From an uncultured Poribacteria bacterium (GTDB taxonomy: Bacteria; Poribacteria; WGA-4E; WGA-3G), in contig OX638316.1 in the NCBI GenBank assembly GCA_951812525.1, forward strand, positions 310,001 to 374,000: a stretch of 64,000 nucleotides of DNA, given 5' to 3'. Under the pieces are notes generated by a model that ran no database searches, was not told the origin of the DNA, and was given only the letters and a program-made list of their open reading frames with translations. How positions within the stretch are numbered: the first letter of the stretch is position 1; every line of letters begins with the position of its first letter. This document shows positions 24,989 through 35,070 of this stretch, one piece after another. A program made the position numbers and the translations under genes.

Positions 24989-26353
24989 ATGAAAAAGACA
25001 TTCATCGCTTTGATAATTATCGGTAGTCTGCTTGCCATCAGCAATAGTTATGGTGCGGTTACCTCCGTCGGAGAAATTAACGTTGCTGGCGAAACTAAAG
25101 GTGTCGTCCCCGCCAGTTCAACGGTGCCATTGATCGTGACACTCGTTGTTGACCGTTCACTGGCAGAACCGGGTGAGGAAATTAAGACGATTGAAATCGT
25201 AATGCCGTTCGGATTCGTGACCCAATCATCCTTTTTCAAAGGCATTTCTCGGGACGGAAACCCAATTGTAGCGCGGGCAGTCGTTTCCGGTGGAACCACT
25301 TTGCGTGTTGAGTTAGCAGATGCCATCGTTGATTTCCAAAATTCGATATATGAAATTACATTCGACACCCGAACACCAAACAGCGTCATACTGGAAGCGG
25401 TATTCAGAGTGCGGCTTCGTAATCTCCGAGACGGTCCCATCGGTGAATTTATCCGACCTGGACAGGCAGATGGGAAACTCAACAACGATGACTTTACCTT
25501 AGAGGTAATTCCCAATGTCCCACCTGATCCAGTCATAGGTTTTATCGCTGAAGCCGATAGCACTGGTGAGAATGATGTGACGCTTCGTTGGGAGAAATCA
25601 ACAGACCTAGATGTCAACGGTTACTTCATCTACAGGGATAAAGAGGAAGAGCCCATCGACATTGAAAATAGGTCTTCAACTACCTATCGCGATGTCAATG
25701 TAGTACCAGGGAGTCGTACGTATCAAATAACGGCTTACAAGACGCGTTTTTTGCAATCGGAACGTTCTCCAATACAAATAGTAGAGGTATCGCCCGATAC
25801 TGCTGCGCCAGAACCTCCTATGATGCTCAGCATTGTTACCTCAAGCGATGGGGTTGAAATTCTCTGGAAGCCGAGTGTCAGTCGCGACGTAATAACATAT
25901 CAAATTTTTGAAGGATCTACCCAACTTGGAGAAATAAGCGAGTCAAAAACGGAATACAAGTATATTGATAGTCGTCCTTTAGATATCGGTAGTTTTACCT
26001 ATGCCGTCACTGCCATTGACGAGGCAAATAATGAATCGGAACCGGTAGAGAAAAGGCTTCGTATATTTGACAAGCCGTATCCAAATCCGTTTACTCCGCT
26101 TTCTCCAAACGAAGATTTCAATCAGGTTGTGTTTCCTGCTCGTGCGCTTGAAGATACTTCAGGCGAATTCACAGTGTTTATCTACGACATCGATGGCATG
26201 CTCGTCAAATCCTTAGCTGCATTGCCGGGTGAAACGGAGTTGACTTGGGATGGACGCGATGAAACTGGTGAGGTAGTTGAAAGCGGTGTTTATGTCTACC
26301 AACTTCAGGTCGGAGAGAGTTTTAAGACTGGCACTTTAATTGTTGCCAAATAG
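24989..26353 (+). CDS. Secreted fibronectin type III protein with FlgD-like/Por-type C-terminal tail
   Basis: A 454-residue protein. A signal peptide (FIALIIIGSLLAISNSYGA) is followed by an Ig/cohesin-like beta domain (about 25-170). Two FN3-type domains follow (from VIGFIAEADSTGENDVTLRW near 183 and EPPMMLSIVTSSDGVEILW near 272). The C-terminal domain of about 90 residues opens KPYPNPFTPLSP and ends GVYVYQLQVGESFKTGTLIV, matching FlgD-Ig/type IX sorting-tail architecture. It is probably exported and attached to the surface. The gene starts 17 bp after the PorV-like gene, so they are likely one operon. Confidence 0.8.
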   Translation: MKKTFIALIIIGSLLAISNSYGAVTSVGEINVAGETKGVVPASSTVPLIVTLVVDRSLAEPGEEIKTIEIVMPFGFVTQSSFFKGISRDGNPIVARAVVSGGTTLRVELADAIVDFQNSIYEITFDTRTPNSVILEAVFRVRLRNLRDGPIGEFIRPGQADGKLNNDDFTLEVIPNVPPDPVIGFIAEADSTGENDVTLRWEKSTDLDVNGYFIYRDKEEEPIDIENRSSTTYRDVNVVPGSRTYQITAYKTRFLQSERSPIQIVEVSPDTAAPEPPMMLSIVTSSDGVEILWKPSVSRDVITYQIFEGSTQLGEISESKTEYKYIDSRPLDIGSFTYAVTAIDEANNESEPVEKRLRIFDKPYPNPFTPLSPNEDFNQVVFPARALEDTSGEFTVFIYDIDGMLVKSLAALPGETELTWDGRDETGEVVESGVYVYQLQVGESFKTGTLIVAK

Positions 26354-26674: not shown

Positions 26675-27733
26675 ATGAATAGATTGAAGTCACACGGACT
26701 TCGGTTCGGGCAGAAAAGTTTAAAACGTACATTGCGCTTAGCGATTCTCATAACCGTGGCAACCGCTTATTCCGTTTTTGTCTCTTTACCGACTGCGGAA
26801 GGGTGGACTGTGCTACAAGAACGCGACCCAGACTTTCGGGATTATATGTCTATCACTTTTACGAGCAAGAGTACCGGCTGGGTAGTTGGTGCTGCATCGT
26901 TTGAGGATTTTGAGAATCCAGGTTTCATCGGTTATACCACAGACGGTGGTGCATCATGGCAAAAATCAGAAATCAAAATTGCTGCTGATTTAGCCGAGGT
27001 CTACTTCTTAGACGAGAAACACGGTTGGGCAGTCGGTGCAAACGGTACAATTGTAACAACCAGTAACGGGCAAGATTGGGAACCACAAACAAGCAAAGTC
27101 GGCAACGGACTTAAGGGTATCTACTTCGTTAATGAAGAGGTTGGGTACATCGCAGGAGAGAGTGACACTATTCTCTCTACGAAAAACGGAGGACGTACCT
27201 GGAAAGTGCTCCAAGGTGGTGCGCTCGGTGCCATTGGTGATGACGATGCCAATATGTATAACGCAGTCCAATTCCTTGACGAAGAAACTGGATGGCTTGC
27301 TGGCGTACGCGTTAGCCCCAGCACACAAGGACAAAGTGCCTTAATTCAGAAGACTACAGACGGTGGACAGAGCTGGGTTACCAAAGAAACTGGCAAAGAA
27401 GATATTCTTGAAGACCTTTTCTTCCTCAACCCCTCAATGGGTTGGGCAGTCGGTGAAAACGGTATAATTCTTCACACCGACGACGGTGGTGAGAGTTGGA
27501 CAGAACAAGCCAGCGGCACACCAGAGACACTACGAAGTGTCGGTTTTGCAGATGAGAATAACGGCTGGGCTGCCGGTGGCGACTTTGGCGTTGGTGCCAT
27601 TCTACGTACAACTGATGGTGGCAAAACTTGGGAACTTGAAGACTCTAAGGAAAAATTGGTTAAAGTCTTTGTACTTGATGGAAAAAATGTGTGGTTAGCA
27701 AGTTCCACTGGTGCCATCATGCGAGAAAAATAA
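26675..27733 (+). CDS. YCF48-like/Asp-box beta-propeller secreted protein
   Basis: A 352-residue protein with an N-terminal membrane-targeting segment (LRLAILITVATAYSVFVSL). It has at least six repeats of the type GWAVGANGTIVTTSNGQDWE, GWVVGAASF, GWLAGV and GWAAGGDFG, with Asp-box turns such as STKNGGRTWK and HTDDGGESWT. This is the seven-bladed propeller seen in photosystem II assembly factor YCF48/Hcf136 and BNR proteins. In a non-photosynthetic bacterium it is probably an extracytoplasmic scaffold. AAAGGAG precedes the ATG. Its transcript has a long structured leader, and a hairpin closes the gene 12 bp after the stop. Confidence 0.85.
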   Translation: MNRLKSHGLRFGQKSLKRTLRLAILITVATAYSVFVSLPTAEGWTVLQERDPDFRDYMSITFTSKSTGWVVGAASFEDFENPGFIGYTTDGGASWQKSEIKIAADLAEVYFLDEKHGWAVGANGTIVTTSNGQDWEPQTSKVGNGLKGIYFVNEEVGYIAGESDTILSTKNGGRTWKVLQGGALGAIGDDDANMYNAVQFLDEETGWLAGVRVSPSTQGQSALIQKTTDGGQSWVTKETGKEDILEDLFFLNPSMGWAVGENGIILHTDDGGESWTEQASGTPETLRSVGFADENNGWAAGGDFGVGAILRTTDGGKTWELEDSKEKLVKVFVLDGKNVWLASSTGAIMREK

Positions 27734-27881: not shown

Positions 27882-29054
27882 TTGGAAACATCCACGTTCG
27901 CGACGCGAATGGATCGATTGGGAACAGAATCTGCATTTGAAGTGCTTGCCAAAGCTAAACAATTAGAGGCACAAGGCAGAAACATCATCCACTTAGAAAT
28001 AGGACAACCGGATTTCCCGACACCGATTAACATCATTGAGGCAGCGTATAAAGCGATGAAGGATGGGCACACCGGCTACTGCCCATCGGCGGGAGTACCG
28101 GAGTTTCGCGAAGTTGTCGCGCAACACATAACAGAGACACGCGGTGTCAACATACACCCAGATGAGGTGACGGTAACACCAGGAGCTAAGCCGATTATCT
28201 TCTTCACCATTCTGGCTTTAATCGATGATGGCGATGAGGTGATTTACCCGGAACCGGGCTTTCCGGTTTATGAATCAGTTATCGACTTCATCGGTGGCAA
28301 AGCCGTGCCGCTGCCTCTTCGCGAGGAAGTAGGTTTCCGATTCCGACTCGAAGACCTCGCCGATGCGATCTCCGACCGAACAAAGCTTTTGATCCTCAAC
28401 TCACCACAGAACCCGACAGGTGGGATCCTAACCCCAGAAGACCTCACAGCCATCGCTGAACTTGCCCAGAAACACAACTTTTATGTGCTGACAGATGAAG
28501 TGTACTCCCGTATCCTGTACGAAGGCAAACACCACAGCGTCATCAACCTTCCCGGTATGAAAGAACGAACAATCCTCATTGAAGGACATTCCAAAACCTA
28601 CGCAATGACAGGATGGCGGTTGGGGTACGGCATCGCTCCGCAAGAAATTGCGGATAAGATTACTCAGTTAACAATCAACTCCAATTCTTGTACTGCAACT
28701 TTTACGCAAATTGCTGGAATAGAAGCATTGACAGGCCCTCAAACGTCCGTTACAGAGATGGTAGAAGAGTTTCAGAAACGGCGTGATGCGATTGTGGGCG
28801 GACTGAACGCTATTGAGGGAGTGAGCTGCATCAAACCGCTTGGGGCGTTCTACGTATTCCCGAATGTTACACAACTTCCTCTTTCGTGCGAGCCACTTGC
28901 TGATTACCTGATGAATGAGGCAGATGTGGCGTTATTGCCCGGCACCGCCTTCGGCAAATACGGCGACGGTTATCTTCGTCTTTCGTATGCGAATTCATTG
29001 GAAAATATCCAAGAGGCATTAGGCAGAATGGAAGCTGCGATTATGAAATTGTAG
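27882..29054 (+). CDS. Class I/II PLP-dependent aminotransferase
   Basis: A 390-residue fold-type I aminotransferase of the aspartate-aminotransferase (AspC/AatA, subgroup I-gamma-like) family. Visible are HLEIGQPDFPTP near residue 34, NSPQNPTGGILT near 172, the DEVYSRILYEG strand near 204, the PLP-binding Lys in EGHSKTYAMTGWRLGYG near 237, and the carboxylate-binding Arg in YLRLSYANS near 369. It transfers amino groups between amino and keto acids, probably aspartate or alanine-type substrates. The start is TTG 27882, with GGAGG ending 7 nt upstream; no in-frame ATG occurs before residue 10. Homoserine kinase follows on the same strand. Confidence 0.9.
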   Translation: METSTFATRMDRLGTESAFEVLAKAKQLEAQGRNIIHLEIGQPDFPTPINIIEAAYKAMKDGHTGYCPSAGVPEFREVVAQHITETRGVNIHPDEVTVTPGAKPIIFFTILALIDDGDEVIYPEPGFPVYESVIDFIGGKAVPLPLREEVGFRFRLEDLADAISDRTKLLILNSPQNPTGGILTPEDLTAIAELAQKHNFYVLTDEVYSRILYEGKHHSVINLPGMKERTILIEGHSKTYAMTGWRLGYGIAPQEIADKITQLTINSNSCTATFTQIAGIEALTGPQTSVTEMVEEFQKRRDAIVGGLNAIEGVSCIKPLGAFYVFPNVTQLPLSCEPLADYLMNEADVALLPGTAFGKYGDGYLRLSYANSLENIQEALGRMEAAIMKL

Positions 29055-29162
29055 CAGCATTGACAGTTATCGGTTGGTAGTCTTCAGTTAAGAGTTTTCA
29101 TTGAGAAAAAATCTCGTGTGACTGACAATTCAACCCGACAATTAACAATAGGAATTTCTTGT

Positions 29163-30110
29163 ATGCCTCAAACCTCTAACAGCGAACTAAGCGAAAAAGT
29201 TATTGCCCGTATTCCTGCAAGCACGACAAACTTGGGTCCTGGCTTTGATGTGCTGGGACTCGCCCTACAACTTTATAGCACTGTTACATTGGAAGCATCC
29301 AAAACCGACACTGAAGTCATTGTGAACGGTGTAGATGCTGATAAAATACCGAGTACACCGGAACATGTCGCGTTTCAAGCAGTAGAATTAGTTTTCAATC
29401 GAAGCGGTACAAAACCTCCTAAGGGCTTCAAATTACACATAGATAATGGAATACCCGCAATTCGTGGATTAGGCGGCAGTGGTACAGCCATTCTTGGTGG
29501 ATTGCTAACGGCAAACGTCCTATGTGGCACGCCATTCTCTGATGCAGAACTTCTCAATTTCGCGACAGAAATAGAAGGGCATCCCGACAACGTGGCGGCT
29601 TCTTTATACGGTGGTATTGTCGTCTCAGCACAGGAAAACGGACAAGTACACACTGTTCAGTTAGCGTGTCCACCTGAACTTTCAATTGTGCTCGCAATCC
29701 CGGATTTTCCGGTTTCAACGAAACAAGCGCGAGCGGTTCTACCAAAGTCAGTGGACTTCGCGGATGCTATCCACAATACGAGTCGCAGTACTCTATTAAT
29801 TGCCAGCATTGTTACCGGTCAATTTGAAATGTTGAGAGTCGCCATGAATGACAGGCTGCATCAGCCATACCGTGCTTCACTAATTCCAGGATTTAACGAT
29901 GTAGCTGAAGCGGCTATCTCCGCTGGTGCGCTCAGCGTCGCGTTGAGTGGTGCGGGCCCGACTGTAGCGGCTTATTGTATAGAACACGATGAACAAATCG
30001 CTAAACAGATGCAGACTGTCTTCAACATGCATCAAACAGTGTCCGATATTAAGATTCTGAAGTCAGATGCCGATGGGGCGAATGTGAAAATTCTGCGTTC
30101 CAGTGCATAG
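29163..30110 (+). CDS. thrB: Homoserine kinase
   Basis: About 315 residues of a GHMP kinase. It shows ARIPASTTNLGPGFDVLGLAL at the N-terminus, the phosphate loop AIRGLGGSGTAILGGL and the C-terminal GALSVALSGAGPTVAA. It phosphorylates homoserine in threonine synthesis. The P-loop is GLGGSGT where most homologues have GLGSSAA, a mild variation. The ATG at 29163 has AGGA 10 nt upstream; a GTG at 29118 would add 15 residues but lacks a ribosome site. It follows the aminotransferase gene and precedes a P-type-ATPase-like gene by 49 bp. Confidence 0.9.
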   Translation: MPQTSNSELSEKVIARIPASTTNLGPGFDVLGLALQLYSTVTLEASKTDTEVIVNGVDADKIPSTPEHVAFQAVELVFNRSGTKPPKGFKLHIDNGIPAIRGLGGSGTAILGGLLTANVLCGTPFSDAELLNFATEIEGHPDNVAASLYGGIVVSAQENGQVHTVQLACPPELSIVLAIPDFPVSTKQARAVLPKSVDFADAIHNTSRSTLLIASIVTGQFEMLRVAMNDRLHQPYRASLIPGFNDVAEAAISAGALSVALSGAGPTVAAYCIEHDEQIAKQMQTVFNMHQTVSDIKILKSDADGANVKILRSSA

Positions 30111-30159: not shown

Positions 30160-33030
30160 ATGTCAAATTTTCACACGGAAAACATTGCATCCATATTGAA
30201 TAGATTCAACTCCAACATGGATCAGGGGTTGAGTGTGGACGCCGTCCAGAGAGCGGAAACGCAATACGGCAAGAATGAACTGGATCCAACGGAAAAACCT
30301 TTTTCCTTTAAGGCGTTTTTTCAACCTTTCCTCACATGGCGCACCCTCGTCTTGACGCTAACCATACTTATTTTAATCATCTCCTTCGTTAATGGCGCAA
30401 GCGGCATTAATCTCTACACAATCGGGGCTGTTGGGATCCTGCTGGTTATGCATATTGGCTGGGCATACGTAACAGATCGCCGCAATCGCAGTCGGGATGA
30501 CAGCATACGTCAACTTATGGTCCACAGTATCAGGGTCATTCGACAAGGGAAAATTGACAAATGCGCACCACGAGACATCGTGCCGGGCGATTTACTCACT
30601 TTCAACGCAGGGGACTACGTTCCAGCTGATGCCCGAATTATCGAATCCGAGGGTCTAACGATTGACGAATCAGCACTCTTTGGTACTGAGGAACCAGTTG
30701 CAAAGACGAGCACCGATATTTCCGATCCTGCTGTACCACCACAAAGACAGAAAAACATGGCATTTGCTGGAACGTATGTTACAGCAGGACACGGCTTTGC
30801 GATTGTGGTACAGACGGGAAAAGATTTAGAAATGTGGAAGCAACGTCGCGATGTGCGTCCGCCTATCATCCCGTACACCTTAGCCGAAAACGAGATCCAA
30901 AGCCTGCACACCGCTATGAAAGTAGCAGGCGTGGTAATTGCTGGCGTAGCCGTGGGAGTTGCATGGTGGTTTGAATATCAAGATCAGACAACCGATTGGT
31001 ATGCCTTGACCCACCTCGGCGTACTGTTTATCCTTGCATCTGCTTCACATGATGTTATTTCCCTACTTCGGCTATCTTTCTCTCAACACGCCGAAAAATT
31101 GTTGGAAAAAGGCGTTATACTACGAAATCCAAATAGCATTGAAAAACTGAGCCGCATTACTGCCTTTTGCGCCAATGAAAATGGTCTCTCTACCACACGC
31201 GCCCTGACGATTTCTAATCTCTTTGTAGATGAACAACTAATTGACGGTAACACGTGGCAAACATGGTTAGACTCCCTGCAACACTTCACACCTACAGAAC
31301 GACAAGAAACAATCGCTGCAATGCCGTCTGGCGGGAAAATCCCACAAGGTGCCTCACACTTAGTGTTTACAGCCGCTCTCGGTACCTACGGCGGACAGCA
31401 GTCGGATAATTCCGAGTTCTTTAATATCGAAGAAAACTGGGAAATCGAGCAGTTTGAGGGAGCATCTTCACTACAAGCGGTAATCCATAAGGCAATGGAA
31501 GAGCTCGGCTACCAACCAGATACCCTAAGTGCCAAACTTCCGTTGGTAAATTCATACCCTTCCACGCGTAATTATGGGTACCACATGCAAGTGTTCGAGT
31601 CAGGTCCAGAAAACTATCTCAATGTCATCTTTGGGGAAGGACAAACGGTGCTTGACACCTGTGCGTACGTGCTCATTGACGGCGAAATTGAACCCATGTT
31701 AGACAATCGCTACGAAAGGTACTACGAGGTCATTGACTACCTGCTCACTACCAGAGCCCAGATTTACGGGGTTGCCTTCCACTCCTCGGATGTTATTCTG
31801 AAACCACAGGAGATGGAAGACAATGCAATTTTCTTAGGGTTTATCGCCCTCTCTGTCAGTAATGGTGAACAGACGAAATCGGTCCTGAAATCCAGTCTTG
31901 ATACCGGACTTAAAGTCATTCTCATGGCAGAGGATAAAAAACAACAAACGATTGATTTCGCGAAGGACCTTGGGTTGATTCACAATCGAAAATCAGTTGT
32001 ATCAAGTGAAGAACTCGATGAAGTTCCGCGCGAACAATTCGATGCCCAGACCTCAAAATGGCTGGCTTACTCTCAACCGACATCAGAACAGCGTCGGAAT
32101 ATTGTCCTGAGTTTGAAACGCCAGGGACATGCTCTCGGGTTCCTCGGTGAAAATAAATCTGATTTACGGGCGATGAATATCGCCAATATCACGCTTGCGG
32201 ATAACACTAAGGCACCGCACGTCGTACAAGCTCTTGCCGATGGGCTAATCGACAAAAAGGGCTTCCAAGCAGTGAGAGATGGATTGCTTTACGCGCGCGA
32301 AGCATATCATAATATAGCAGGTTTCCTAAGGTGGAGTTTCTCGTGTACGCTCTCCTTGCTATTAACCCTTACCCTTGGAACAGTTTTGCATTACCTCTAT
32401 AAACTGCCGATGCCTTTGACATTAACACAGATAATTTGGGTACAATTTCTCTTAACCCTACTACCTTCATTAGGTGTAGGCACTGAAAAAATATTCGCCG
32501 ACGAAAAACACCACCGTCCGACCCTATTTTCGGCTTCACGCTTCCTTTCCAGAACAACACCTGTGGATATCATTTGCCGTTCTGTAACCATCAGTCTGAT
32601 GACAATTATTTCCTTTTTTCTTCTGCTTTGGCACTCCGCTGCGCTGTCTGATCCACTTGGCGTCTCGACCTTACTAAGAGATGTATTTTCGACTTCAAAT
32701 TCGGCAGATCAAAATGCTGCGGATATCTCAGTAGCACGAACAGTAGCATGTACCACGCTTATTTTTACGCAATTGACGACCTGCTGGCAAACGCTGCGCT
32801 ATCCATGGGAATCGCTCTTTCAGAGGATGTTTGCGAACACTCGACTCTTTATTATCCTACTTGCTGTTATTGGACTTCACCTGATTGCTGTCTATGTCGA
32901 ACCTATTAGACAAGTCCTAGGAATGGCACATCTCAAATGGGAATGGCAATGGGCACTTCTGTTCAGCTTGATTTTGTTCTTTTTGCCGTTAAATCTGGCG
33001 ATAAATGCCCAGCCCGATGATGATTATTAA
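30160..33030 (+). CDS. P-type ATPase-like protein lacking catalytic motifs
   Basis: A 956-residue protein with the full layout of a P2-type cation ATPase: N-terminal domain, two TM pairs, A domain, P/N domains and a C-terminal TM bundle. Every catalytic signature is replaced in register. TGES reads GTEE (DESALFGTEEPVAK, 169 on); the PEGLP region is SASHDVI; the phosphorylation site DKTGT is NENGL (CANENGLSTT, N339 at the aspartate position); the KGAPE nucleotide site is FGEGQ; the GDGVND hinge is GENKSD (663-668). The frame is intact and TM segments are strongly hydrophobic, so this looks like a maintained pseudoenzyme rather than a decaying gene. It may be a sensor, scaffold or transport regulator; role unknown. 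Confidence 0.8.
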   Translation: MSNFHTENIASILNRFNSNMDQGLSVDAVQRAETQYGKNELDPTEKPFSFKAFFQPFLTWRTLVLTLTILILIISFVNGASGINLYTIGAVGILLVMHIGWAYVTDRRNRSRDDSIRQLMVHSIRVIRQGKIDKCAPRDIVPGDLLTFNAGDYVPADARIIESEGLTIDESALFGTEEPVAKTSTDISDPAVPPQRQKNMAFAGTYVTAGHGFAIVVQTGKDLEMWKQRRDVRPPIIPYTLAENEIQSLHTAMKVAGVVIAGVAVGVAWWFEYQDQTTDWYALTHLGVLFILASASHDVISLLRLSFSQHAEKLLEKGVILRNPNSIEKLSRITAFCANENGLSTTRALTISNLFVDEQLIDGNTWQTWLDSLQHFTPTERQETIAAMPSGGKIPQGASHLVFTAALGTYGGQQSDNSEFFNIEENWEIEQFEGASSLQAVIHKAMEELGYQPDTLSAKLPLVNSYPSTRNYGYHMQVFESGPENYLNVIFGEGQTVLDTCAYVLIDGEIEPMLDNRYERYYEVIDYLLTTRAQIYGVAFHSSDVILKPQEMEDNAIFLGFIALSVSNGEQTKSVLKSSLDTGLKVILMAEDKKQQTIDFAKDLGLIHNRKSVVSSEELDEVPREQFDAQTSKWLAYSQPTSEQRRNIVLSLKRQGHALGFLGENKSDLRAMNIANITLADNTKAPHVVQALADGLIDKKGFQAVRDGLLYAREAYHNIAGFLRWSFSCTLSLLLTLTLGTVLHYLYKLPMPLTLTQIIWVQFLLTLLPSLGVGTEKIFADEKHHRPTLFSASRFLSRTTPVDIICRSVTISLMTIISFFLLLWHSAALSDPLGVSTLLRDVFSTSNSADQNAADISVARTVACTTLIFTQLTTCWQTLRYPWESLFQRMFANTRLFIILLAVIGLHLIAVYVEPIRQVLGMAHLKWEWQWALLFSLILFFLPLNLAINAQPDDDY

Positions 33031-33090: not shown

Positions 33091-35070
33091 TTAGACCCAA
33101 AATCCATAGGTAGGGATTCCCACAATAATTCCAAGGATTGTCCAGAGACTGCCCACTATAAATTCTCCCAAGATTAACCCTAAAAAGAATGGGGCTATTT
33201 TGCGATGCCTCACCACACCACCGTACTGAAGAATAAGCCATTTGATTAGCCAACTCATGAAAAGGCAACTCCACGTAACGTTCATTCCCCAACTCGTGGA
33301 GATAGCAAATCCGGCAGGATGAAATGGCCACCACACAAACCGCATCCGAAAAAACATCAGCACTGTTGTTAAGAGAAAACCGAGACCCATAAACCCACTT
33401 TCAGGAATGAGTGTTTCTGCAGGTGCTTGCATCCACCCTGCGAGGCGGCGATACGGTTCTATGCCGAAAGCACTCAGAGAGGGCCAATAGGCACGTACCT
33501 CCATACCCAATCGATAACCGCGGTCAATGAGTGCCCAAAATCCTGCCAATGAACCTAAGATAGTCGCGAGCGTTAAGGCAAAGATGATACGATGCATTGT
33601 CATGTTCGTCCGCTCCATGATTTTGAAACCTTCCAATTGGTGTGGCATTGGATGGCTCCGATGGGCACGATTGATGAACCAAAACATGGAGAACATAATA
33701 AGATTGCCTCTTCCCAATCGGCGTGTGCCGACGGTGCGCGTCAATATTTCATCAGGGCCGGAATAGTGTAAGTCATGTACAGGGGTGCCTAACTCGGCAC
33801 GCATTCGAGTTATAGCGATGGAAATCATATAATAGATTACGAAAAATGCGAACATCACCCACAACTCAGCACCGCCATAGTAACAGAAAACTACAAGGAA
33901 CACCATCACTAAGATGAGACAGACCGTCGCACCCCGATAGGACATTGGTTCAGATGTATCGCGCCCTGCGGCAATAGATTCAGCATTACCCTGTTGGGTA
34001 TCCATTCCGAGAACAGTCTTTCCAACGTGCAAAAGATGTCGCCGACTCGCCCAAATTGCTAAAACACACAGCGCAAGATAACCACCTGATGCCTGCTCAT
34101 TCATGTATGGAAAGCGCGGGAGACTGCGGAGTCCAAGGGCAGCACCGAGAACACGCATAAATCGCCAATACCAAAAGAAAAACCAACACGAAAACGAAAG
34201 GTCCAGCGGAATAAAGAAACCGAGTCCAATAGCAAACGGATAGAGTGAAAATGGGATCCTACCCATAGCGTTCCAAGGACTCTCCGTAAAGATTTGAAAA
34301 CTGCGGACACGCGTCCTCAGCTCTGGTAAAATCGGATAGAGAAAGTTGACACCATTCCAAAGTGCAAGTGCACCCGCAATCCCGAAGCCGAGCCACATCA
34401 ACTTGTTCTGAAAGAGGCGATTCTGCGGTGTTTCCGTCAACTGGAGCGGAAGTTGAATGATAGGGTAGCTCAGTTTCTCATGTTCGATCCACTGTTTTCG
34501 GACAATTATATTGATGCAAAGCATACCGAAAATCAACACAGTAATAAAAGCCGTCCACCAGAGTACAGGTGTTGCCCATCCGAGTAAAGTTCTAACCGTA
34601 TAAAGGGGCAGCTCCCCTTCGTAATAGCCGTATAAAAGTGAAGTGTCACTAACAGTGAGCCACTCTGGAAGAAACGGAACAAACAACTGCTGCCACTCAT
34701 TTTCTGGTGTTGCGAATCGGAAGGCGTGTCCGAGCATCGGCACCAAAATCTCAAGCATATCGTGACCAGTGATACCTGAAGCAATAGAAAGCATCAGGTA
34801 AACAACGACCAATTCGCTCTGCACCAACGTCAATCTTGGCAGGAAACGCCGGAGCAATTGGTTCACACCGATCACCAAGAACAGGCTAAAGATCACATTA
34901 AAAAAAAGTGAAATTGTTACAGGATGACCCGAATACCGGATAACTTCCATCTCAATAACCCAATAGCAGTTAATGGGTATTAGGATAACAGCAATAAGTA
35001 TAGATTTGAGTGTGACACCGTGGGCAGGAACTTGAGATGTGACTAACGAAGGGGAAGTTTCAACTCCCAT
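33091..35070 (-). CDS. Polytopic membrane protein, DUF6785-like
   Basis: A 659-residue integral membrane protein with about a dozen hydrophobic segments (for example LFFNVIFSLFLVIGVNQLL and the C-terminal FLGLILGEFIVGSLWTILG). Conserved-looking loops include SGITGHDMLEILVPMLGHA near residue 97 and an ELGTPVHDLHYSGPDEI loop near 425. It resembles the DUF6785/DUF6784 proteins common in Planctomycetes and Poribacteria, which recall oligopeptide-type permeases in topology, but the substrate is unknown. It converges with the P-type-like gene and has its own predicted promoter at 35186-35214. Confidence 0.7.
   Translation of the reverse strand: MGVETSPSLVTSQVPAHGVTLKSILIAVILIPINCYWVIEMEVIRYSGHPVTISLFFNVIFSLFLVIGVNQLLRRFLPRLTLVQSELVVVYLMLSIASGITGHDMLEILVPMLGHAFRFATPENEWQQLFVPFLPEWLTVSDTSLLYGYYEGELPLYTVRTLLGWATPVLWWTAFITVLIFGMLCINIIVRKQWIEHEKLSYPIIQLPLQLTETPQNRLFQNKLMWLGFGIAGALALWNGVNFLYPILPELRTRVRSFQIFTESPWNAMGRIPFSLYPFAIGLGFFIPLDLSFSCWFFFWYWRFMRVLGAALGLRSLPRFPYMNEQASGGYLALCVLAIWASRRHLLHVGKTVLGMDTQQGNAESIAAGRDTSEPMSYRGATVCLILVMVFLVVFCYYGGAELWVMFAFFVIYYMISIAITRMRAELGTPVHDLHYSGPDEILTRTVGTRRLGRGNLIMFSMFWFINRAHRSHPMPHQLEGFKIMERTNMTMHRIIFALTLATILGSLAGFWALIDRGYRLGMEVRAYWPSLSAFGIEPYRRLAGWMQAPAETLIPESGFMGLGFLLTTVLMFFRMRFVWWPFHPAGFAISTSWGMNVTWSCLFMSWLIKWLILQYGGVVRHRKIAPFFLGLILGEFIVGSLWTILGIIVGIPTYGFWV

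Follow-up and report, generated by a model that had tools for sequence, protein, structure and literature searches.

The gene at positions 30160 to 33030 of the window, by which we mean the whole stretch of 64,000 nucleotides analysed here, is a homologue of P2A-type (SERCA/PMR1/LMCA1-like) P-type ATPases in which the signature motifs have been replaced. Throughout the phylum, its orthologues have intact open reading frames and have lost their catalytic sites, evolve under purifying selection, descend vertically and are predicted to retain the whole P-type fold. As nearly all examined genomes of the phylum keep the gene intact, the body of a pump probably now serves a purpose other than pumping. 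We consider an ancient, phylum-wide pseudopump, kept for a fold-dependent, non-catalytic job that involves neither ATP hydrolysis nor classical cation transport and most likely acting as a membrane scaffold or regulator, to be the best explanation, with a probability of about 0.6. P-type ATPases belong to the textbook enzymes, and their motifs are taken as diagnostic. Candidatus Poribacteria, to which the host genome of the window gene belongs, are sponge-associated; this genome is a single contig of 5.06 Mb.

An intact homologue of P2A-type ATPases

The open reading frame starts with ATG and encodes 956 residues with no internal stop. Three Pfam families, Cation_ATPase_N, E1-E2_ATPase and Cation_ATPase_C, score over their cut-offs, which represents significant P-type homology over the length of the protein; the HAD and N-domain models gave no match, and the same Pfam search returned no domain besides these three families, cyclase domains included. 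The NCBIfam model TIGR01522 matches with an E value of 2.5e-58. In the PDB sequence search the top match was LMCA1 (6zhf, E 1.4e-51), in two stretches that flank the N domain. The initial annotation, which had described an intact 956-residue P-type ATPase homologue with fold-defining sequence and transmembrane segments retained, is borne out by the stop-free frame, by matches in the three databases along the length, and by the predicted models described below. By eye, no clear Shine-Dalgarno sequence precedes the ATG. Scans around the gene found 12 promoters (8.1 expected from shuffled sequence) and 7 terminators (5.5 expected); as both are near the shuffled expectation, we make no claim about a transcription unit beyond what spacing indicates.

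The gene and its replaced segments are as follows; residue positions are those of the window protein, and the motif and ligand positions come from the alignment.

30160..33030, forward strand: the 'pseudopump', a 956-residue P2A-type homologue of P-type ATPases that lacks the catalytic motifs (open reading frame, domain searches, alignment)
30517..30879, forward strand: A (actuator) domain, residues 120-240 (Pfam and conservation count)
30679..30690, forward strand: TGES position, now FGTE (174-177); dephosphorylation Glu lost
31045..31059, forward strand: M4 PEGLP position, now SHDVI (296-300); cation ligand E309 replaced by His (H297)
31174..31188, forward strand: DKTGT position, now NENGL (339-343); phosphorylated Asp replaced by Asn, Lys by Glu
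31630..31644, forward strand: KGAPE position, now FGEGQ (491-495); ATP-site Lys replaced by Phe
31855..31866, forward strand: DPPR position, now VSNG (566-569)
31927..31935, forward strand: TGD position, now AED (590-592)
32146..32163, forward strand: GDGVND position, now GENKSD (663-668); Mg2+ Asp D703 lost, D707 kept
32347..32358, forward strand: M5 cation ligands N768/E771, now T730/L733 (730-733)
32443..32457, forward strand: M6 cation ligands N796/T799/D800, now Q762/L765/T766 (762-766)

Loss of the signature residues

Residues were compared in an alignment of the window protein with 76 orthologues (77 in total) and 43 canonical P-type ATPases. Residue numbers are those of SERCA, mapped through LMCA1 and the canonical sequences in the alignments. 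Before counting, we dropped three canonical rows, L145 and L154 (wrong frame, from the longest-ORF rule) and L155 (partial, 502 residues), as well as the orthologue fragments L085, L086, L076 (two pieces), L157 and L158. The canonical sequences served as controls: D351, K352, E183, D703, F487 and R560 are kept in 43 of 43.

In the window protein, the nucleotide-site residues F487, K515 and R560 correspond to S468, F491 and Q534. The replacements of DKTGT, KGAPE and GDGVND had been read exactly from the sequence alone, and the alignment confirms them. TGES and PEGLP are likewise replaced, but their segments need adjustment: the first is FGTE rather than the proposed GTEE, a shift of one residue, and the second is SHDVI, within the longer SASHDVI given before. 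The more general statement that every catalytic motif has been replaced holds for all signature motifs but not for each single residue, as G354, G516 and D707 are retained and K684 has become another basic residue, Arg. Given the established chemistry of P-type ATPases, the window protein is expected to be incapable of ATP binding, phosphorylation, dephosphorylation and cation coordination.

Homologues with the same replacements were looked for and found. In the window's genus, where identity to the window protein goes down to 63%, the D351 column is Asn in 37 of 38 sequences and His in the remaining one, and K352E, K515F, K684R, N768T, E771L, N796Q and D800T are fixed (38/38). As the pattern is common to full-length orthologues in 77 of the 84 phylum genomes, it is not a matter of chance.

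These counts bear on the idea that the protein still works as a pump, its catalytic residues having moved or a new nucleophile having taken over. Asp occupies the D351 column in 30 of the 77 orthologues and Glu the E309 column of M4 in eight, while D707 is kept, and K684 is Lys or Arg, in 76 each, all of which would fit such a pump. Against it, D703 and the cation ligands N768, E771 and D800 are kept in none of the 77, and the Lys of the phosphorylation loop, K352, in a single one. The ATP site fares no better (K515 in none, F487 in four, R560 in nine), and Glu is found at the E183 column of TGES in one ambiguous, gapped row; in the window's own genus the nucleophile column holds no Asp. We regard an active pump with rearranged chemistry as highly improbable and, judging from the residues, a pump function of any kind as very unlikely. 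The losses did not begin with the phosphorylatable Asp, since this residue persists in 30 orthologues in which D703, the three cation ligands and, with one exception among all 77, K352 have disappeared. It stayed as a bystander in some lineages and turned into Asn in the window's genus. Some residual chemistry may exist in other families of the phylum, given the orthologues that keep the aspartate or the M4 glutamate.

Distribution and descent

A search with the window protein gave matches in 89 of 97 genomes, and a profile built from 60 orthologues in 83 of the 84 genomes of the phylum (Poribacteria and kin). A full-length, stop-free orthologue is present in 77 of these 84, and fragments at contig ends in four more (G056, G069, G076, G077). 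In G079 (64% complete) the orthologue consists of two adjoining open reading frames of 403 and 629 codons (L076:3707-6572), owing to a frameshift or an assembly error. With the fragments and the split copy, the orthologue is thus present in 82 of 84 genomes; its identity goes down to 18%, with the reading frames still intact. Of the other two genomes, G081 has a canonical pump only, and in G051 (81% complete) neither the orthologue nor a match to the window ThrB was detected, the thrB block being missing.

A gap in profile scores separates the full-length orthologues (E 7.1e-245 or better) from the best full-length match outside the phylum (E 9.4e-182). Of the 386 genomes searched, 302 lie outside the phylum, and 95 of these have a match at E<=1e-60. 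From these we took 40 high-scoring sequences, of which 37 were readable at full length; all 37 of this high-scoring subset keep DKTGT and GDG[V/I]ND. Pseudopumps may exist outside the phylum beyond these 37 sequences.

Two trees were built, the first from 36 of the 77 orthologues and 43 canonical rows, the second, a quick IQ-TREE run, from 15 orthologues and 14 canonical sequences. Both FastTree and IQ-TREE (quick, C20) part the orthologues from the canonical pumps by one branch with a support of 100, and the inner branching of both trees broadly matches taxonomy. Synteny with thrB further backs orthology. A single origin of the orthologues is supported by the trees, if not proven given their long branches.

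The orthologue nearest to the canonical side of the trees belongs to another class of the phylum (L070:3968-6805, genome G082). K352 is retained in it, but its phosphorylation site holds Asn and its D703 position Lys. Genome G082 further contains canonical P2A-like pieces (L082, L156) and a canonical pump (L081). With these canonical sequences beside it, the dead gene probably arose next to an active paralogue. In the most plausible scenario, a P2A-type ATPase would have lost the residues for ATP binding, phosphorylation, dephosphorylation and cation coordination close to the base of the phylum. Purifying selection would since have maintained it for a role that depends on the fold and not on catalysis.

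Purifying selection

The dN/dS values of the window gene against its six closest congeners are 0.119, 0.109, 0.077, 0.099, 0.082 and 0.075. A further 17 pairs, one of them overlapping this set, range in relatedness from genus to class; 15 of the 17 have values of 0.075-0.19. The two outliers are L004/L005 (0.45), which are 99.7% identical and have no power, and L075/L158 (0.275), a near-saturated pair. For the neighbouring genes compared with the same congeners, the values are 0.019-0.042 for the aminotransferase and 0.04-0.10 for thrB where dS is finite, two thrB rows with infinite dS yielding no ratio; seven uppS rows with pN near 0.7 reflect an alignment artefact and were ignored.

That the gene might be a decaying pseudogene that has yet to acquire stops could be argued from its faster evolution relative to the adjoining aminotransferase (0.075-0.12 versus 0.019-0.042) and from the split gene of G079. 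Yet its dN/dS of about 0.1 is far from 1 and comparable with the upper values of thrB, and the gene is intact in genome after genome down to the most divergent orthologues. The distribution and the dN/dS values rule this explanation out for the phylum as a whole, in line with the early view that the gene is not decaying, and we see almost no room for it in the window gene.

Predicted structure

Structure prediction, proposed as a check in the initial annotation, yielded complete P-type folds. The AlphaFold2 model of the window protein has a pLDDT of 82.4 and a pTM of 0.74, with structural matches over residues 1-956, and that of L075, among the most degenerate orthologues, a pLDDT of 81.5 and a pTM of 0.76. 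The models match whole P-type ATPases, including SERCA1a in the E1 state (4h1w; Z 34.3, rmsd 6.9, 888 residues aligned) and LMCA1 in the E1-Ca state (9evc; Z 33.6, rmsd 5.7, 806 aligned). The models support, but do not prove, that the A, N and P domains and the ten helices are retained, as AlphaFold may favour the often-seen P-type ATPase fold. Most of the top structural matches of both models are E1-state pumps. We infer that the pseudopump is an inner-membrane protein whose conformation is fixed and resembles the open E1 state.

Gene neighbourhood

The genes around the pseudopump gene are listed here.

24989-26353: protein ending in a FlgD-Ig domain, with a match below threshold to CHU_C (type IX secretion signal)
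26675..27733, forward strand: Ycf48/BNR-repeat protein, usually upstream of the aminotransferase (synteny)
27882..29054, forward strand: class I/II aminotransferase (aspartate aminotransferase-like), usually the next gene upstream (synteny)
29118..30110, forward strand: thrB-like homoserine kinase (GHMP kinase), 49 nt upstream of the pseudopump gene
33091-35070, reverse strand: convergent neighbour with DUF6785/DUF6784 (a large family), adjoining in nearly all family-level relatives

The gene at 24989-26353 is preceded by one for a 324-residue protein without Pfam match, and both are syntenic with the ATPase block. In 67 of 79 orthologue loci (the second fragment of L076 not being counted), thrB is the immediate upstream gene and has the same orientation, with gaps of -44 to 403 nt. 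Among the 12 other loci, L026, L064 and L085 are truncated by contig ends, and the remaining nine (L057-L062, L070, L075, L077) genuinely depart from this arrangement. L057-L062 come from six genomes of one genus (f4 g7), in which the pseudopump gene lies away from thrB, itself found elsewhere. In L060, an order-level relative that retains the phosphorylatable Asp, part of the frame upstream of the pseudopump looks, by eye, like the beginning of ribosomal protein L27. L072 has no aminotransferase between the Ycf48-like gene and thrB. In G071 (91% complete) and G072 (95%), no gene reaches the family cut-off for thrB and nothing matches the window ThrB, but both keep the pseudopump; in G072, a Ycf48-like gene is directly upstream of it (L075:3995-6691). 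The persistence of the gene in these genomes and arrangements rules out ThrB or the aminotransferase as an obligatory partner. By co-location, their products are nevertheless partner candidates.

It is tempting to speculate that the pseudopump might serve aspartate-family amino-acid metabolism as a receptor or facilitator in the membrane. Without any catalysis, it would be expressed together with the aminotransferase and ThrB and would sense or pass a small metabolite instead of pumping ions; we find this rather improbable.

Alternatively, the protein might act as a subunit that forms heterodimers with an active P-type ATPase in its own cell and regulates it. MgtA is called a dimeric P-type ATPase in the title of one paper (PMC10925321), and most genomes encode at least one further PF00122 protein. 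However, that of the window's genome is a 749-residue frame, judging by its length probably of the heavy-metal rather than the P2A type, and no other PF00122 protein was found in G072 or in G004, G013 and G054 (81-89% complete). In G072, the pseudopump is the sole PF00122 protein found and is thus not merely a subunit of an active pump. We disfavour this alternative as most improbable.

Conserved regions and putative function

Within the window's genus, the mean frequency of the major residue is 0.98 for FGTE and 0.93 for NENGL, versus 0.81 for the whole protein, and the TGD segment is conserved below the protein average. For deep conservation, we counted columns conserved at >=80% (weighted) in the orthologues and in canonical pumps. 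The A domain has 27 such columns versus 28 in canonical pumps and is the only domain to equal them. The corresponding numbers are 20 versus 74 for the P domain, 8 versus 27 for the N domain, 3 versus 27 for M1-M4 and 14 versus 32 for M5-M10. W725 (M5) and P943 (M10) are newly conserved in the orthologues, at 94% each.

The membrane segments are central to the main rival explanation, an ATP-independent transporter or facilitator whose ten-helix body would pass another substrate (perhaps neutral, an amino acid or a lipid) down its gradient. Several features speak for it: M4 is still broken at residues 294-298 in the window model, and in family f1 the E309-G310 pair is mostly [H/Q/Y/G]-[D/N], the M4 acid being shifted by one residue (G310 column D in 43 and N in 13 of 56). 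T730, Q762 and T766, polar residues that are new at their positions, do not vary within the genus, and genes of aspartate-family amino-acid metabolism lie upstream. Nevertheless, M1-M4 have lost nearly all their deep conservation, SHDVI is more variable in the genus than the protein mean (0.70 versus 0.81), unlike a substrate site, and genomes devoid of thrB keep the pseudopump. We regard such a transporter as unlikely. A non-catalytic scaffold or regulator is better supported, because constraint acts on the fold rather than on the sites, and because M1-M4 conserve no single path for a substrate. In such a scaffold, a partner from the cytoplasm or the membrane would most probably dock on the conserved A domain. 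This is a guess, and a weak one, because the A domain is the faster-evolving part between close congeners (0.12-0.20 versus 0.06-0.09 for the P/N region).

Comparison with known systems

This deep, vertically inherited branch indicates that a complete fold can be selected for without the P-type motifs. It lets one ask what use there is for a P-type fold that cannot pump, and pseudopumps provide natural controls for structure-function work on SERCA-like pumps. They also carry a warning for annotation, as three Pfam families over their cut-offs lead to an automatic call as a cation pump.

The P2A Ca2+-ATPases LMCA1, PMR1/SPCA and SERCA are the best sequence and fold matches to the whole window protein, with which they have the A, N and P domains and the ten-helix layout in common. 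In contrast to them, the window protein has all tested catalytic and cation-binding signatures replaced and scores far below the equivalog cut-off (197.6 versus 798.3 bits). Its situation recalls that of pseudoenzymes such as pseudokinases and pseudophosphatases, which have kept the fold and lost catalysis, and in which scaffold or allosteric roles are common according to the available part of a review (PMC10211241). In that part of the review, the words ATPase and transporter do not occur, and in the available part of another (PMC10654040), the terms 'inactive' and 'without ATPase activity' are absent. Our literature search for inactive or pseudo P-type ATPases, weak evidence as it covered open-licence papers only and some of these in part, gave none in a bacterium, consistent with the earlier remark that dead P-type ATPases are rarely described in bacteria. 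If the receptor or facilitator reading were true, the phylum would have a P-type pseudoenzyme family of a sort found in print, within the material consulted, only for eukaryotes.

In that material, the nearest precedents for the pseudopump are TMEM94 and PfGCbeta. In Plasmodium PfGCbeta, as described in the accessible part of PMC6592433, a degenerate P4-ATPase domain of a eukaryotic protein is fused to a guanylate cyclase, whereas the window protein is P2A-like and stands alone, with no C-terminal cyclase domains in Pfam. Human TMEM94, the claimed ER Mg2+-ATPase 'ERMA', showed no ATPase activity and stayed in a single fixed conformation under each of six conditions (PMC12134183), but ATP-dependent Mg2+ uptake is reported in the part of PMC13322241 available to us, so that its activity is disputed. 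TMEM94 has no entry among the 50 structural matches listed for the window model. Unlike the window protein, it is eukaryotic; like it, TMEM94 folds as a P-type ATPase, with ten helices and domains resembling A, P and N, and lacks TGES (PMC12134183). The pseudopump family bears on the disputed case of TMEM94.
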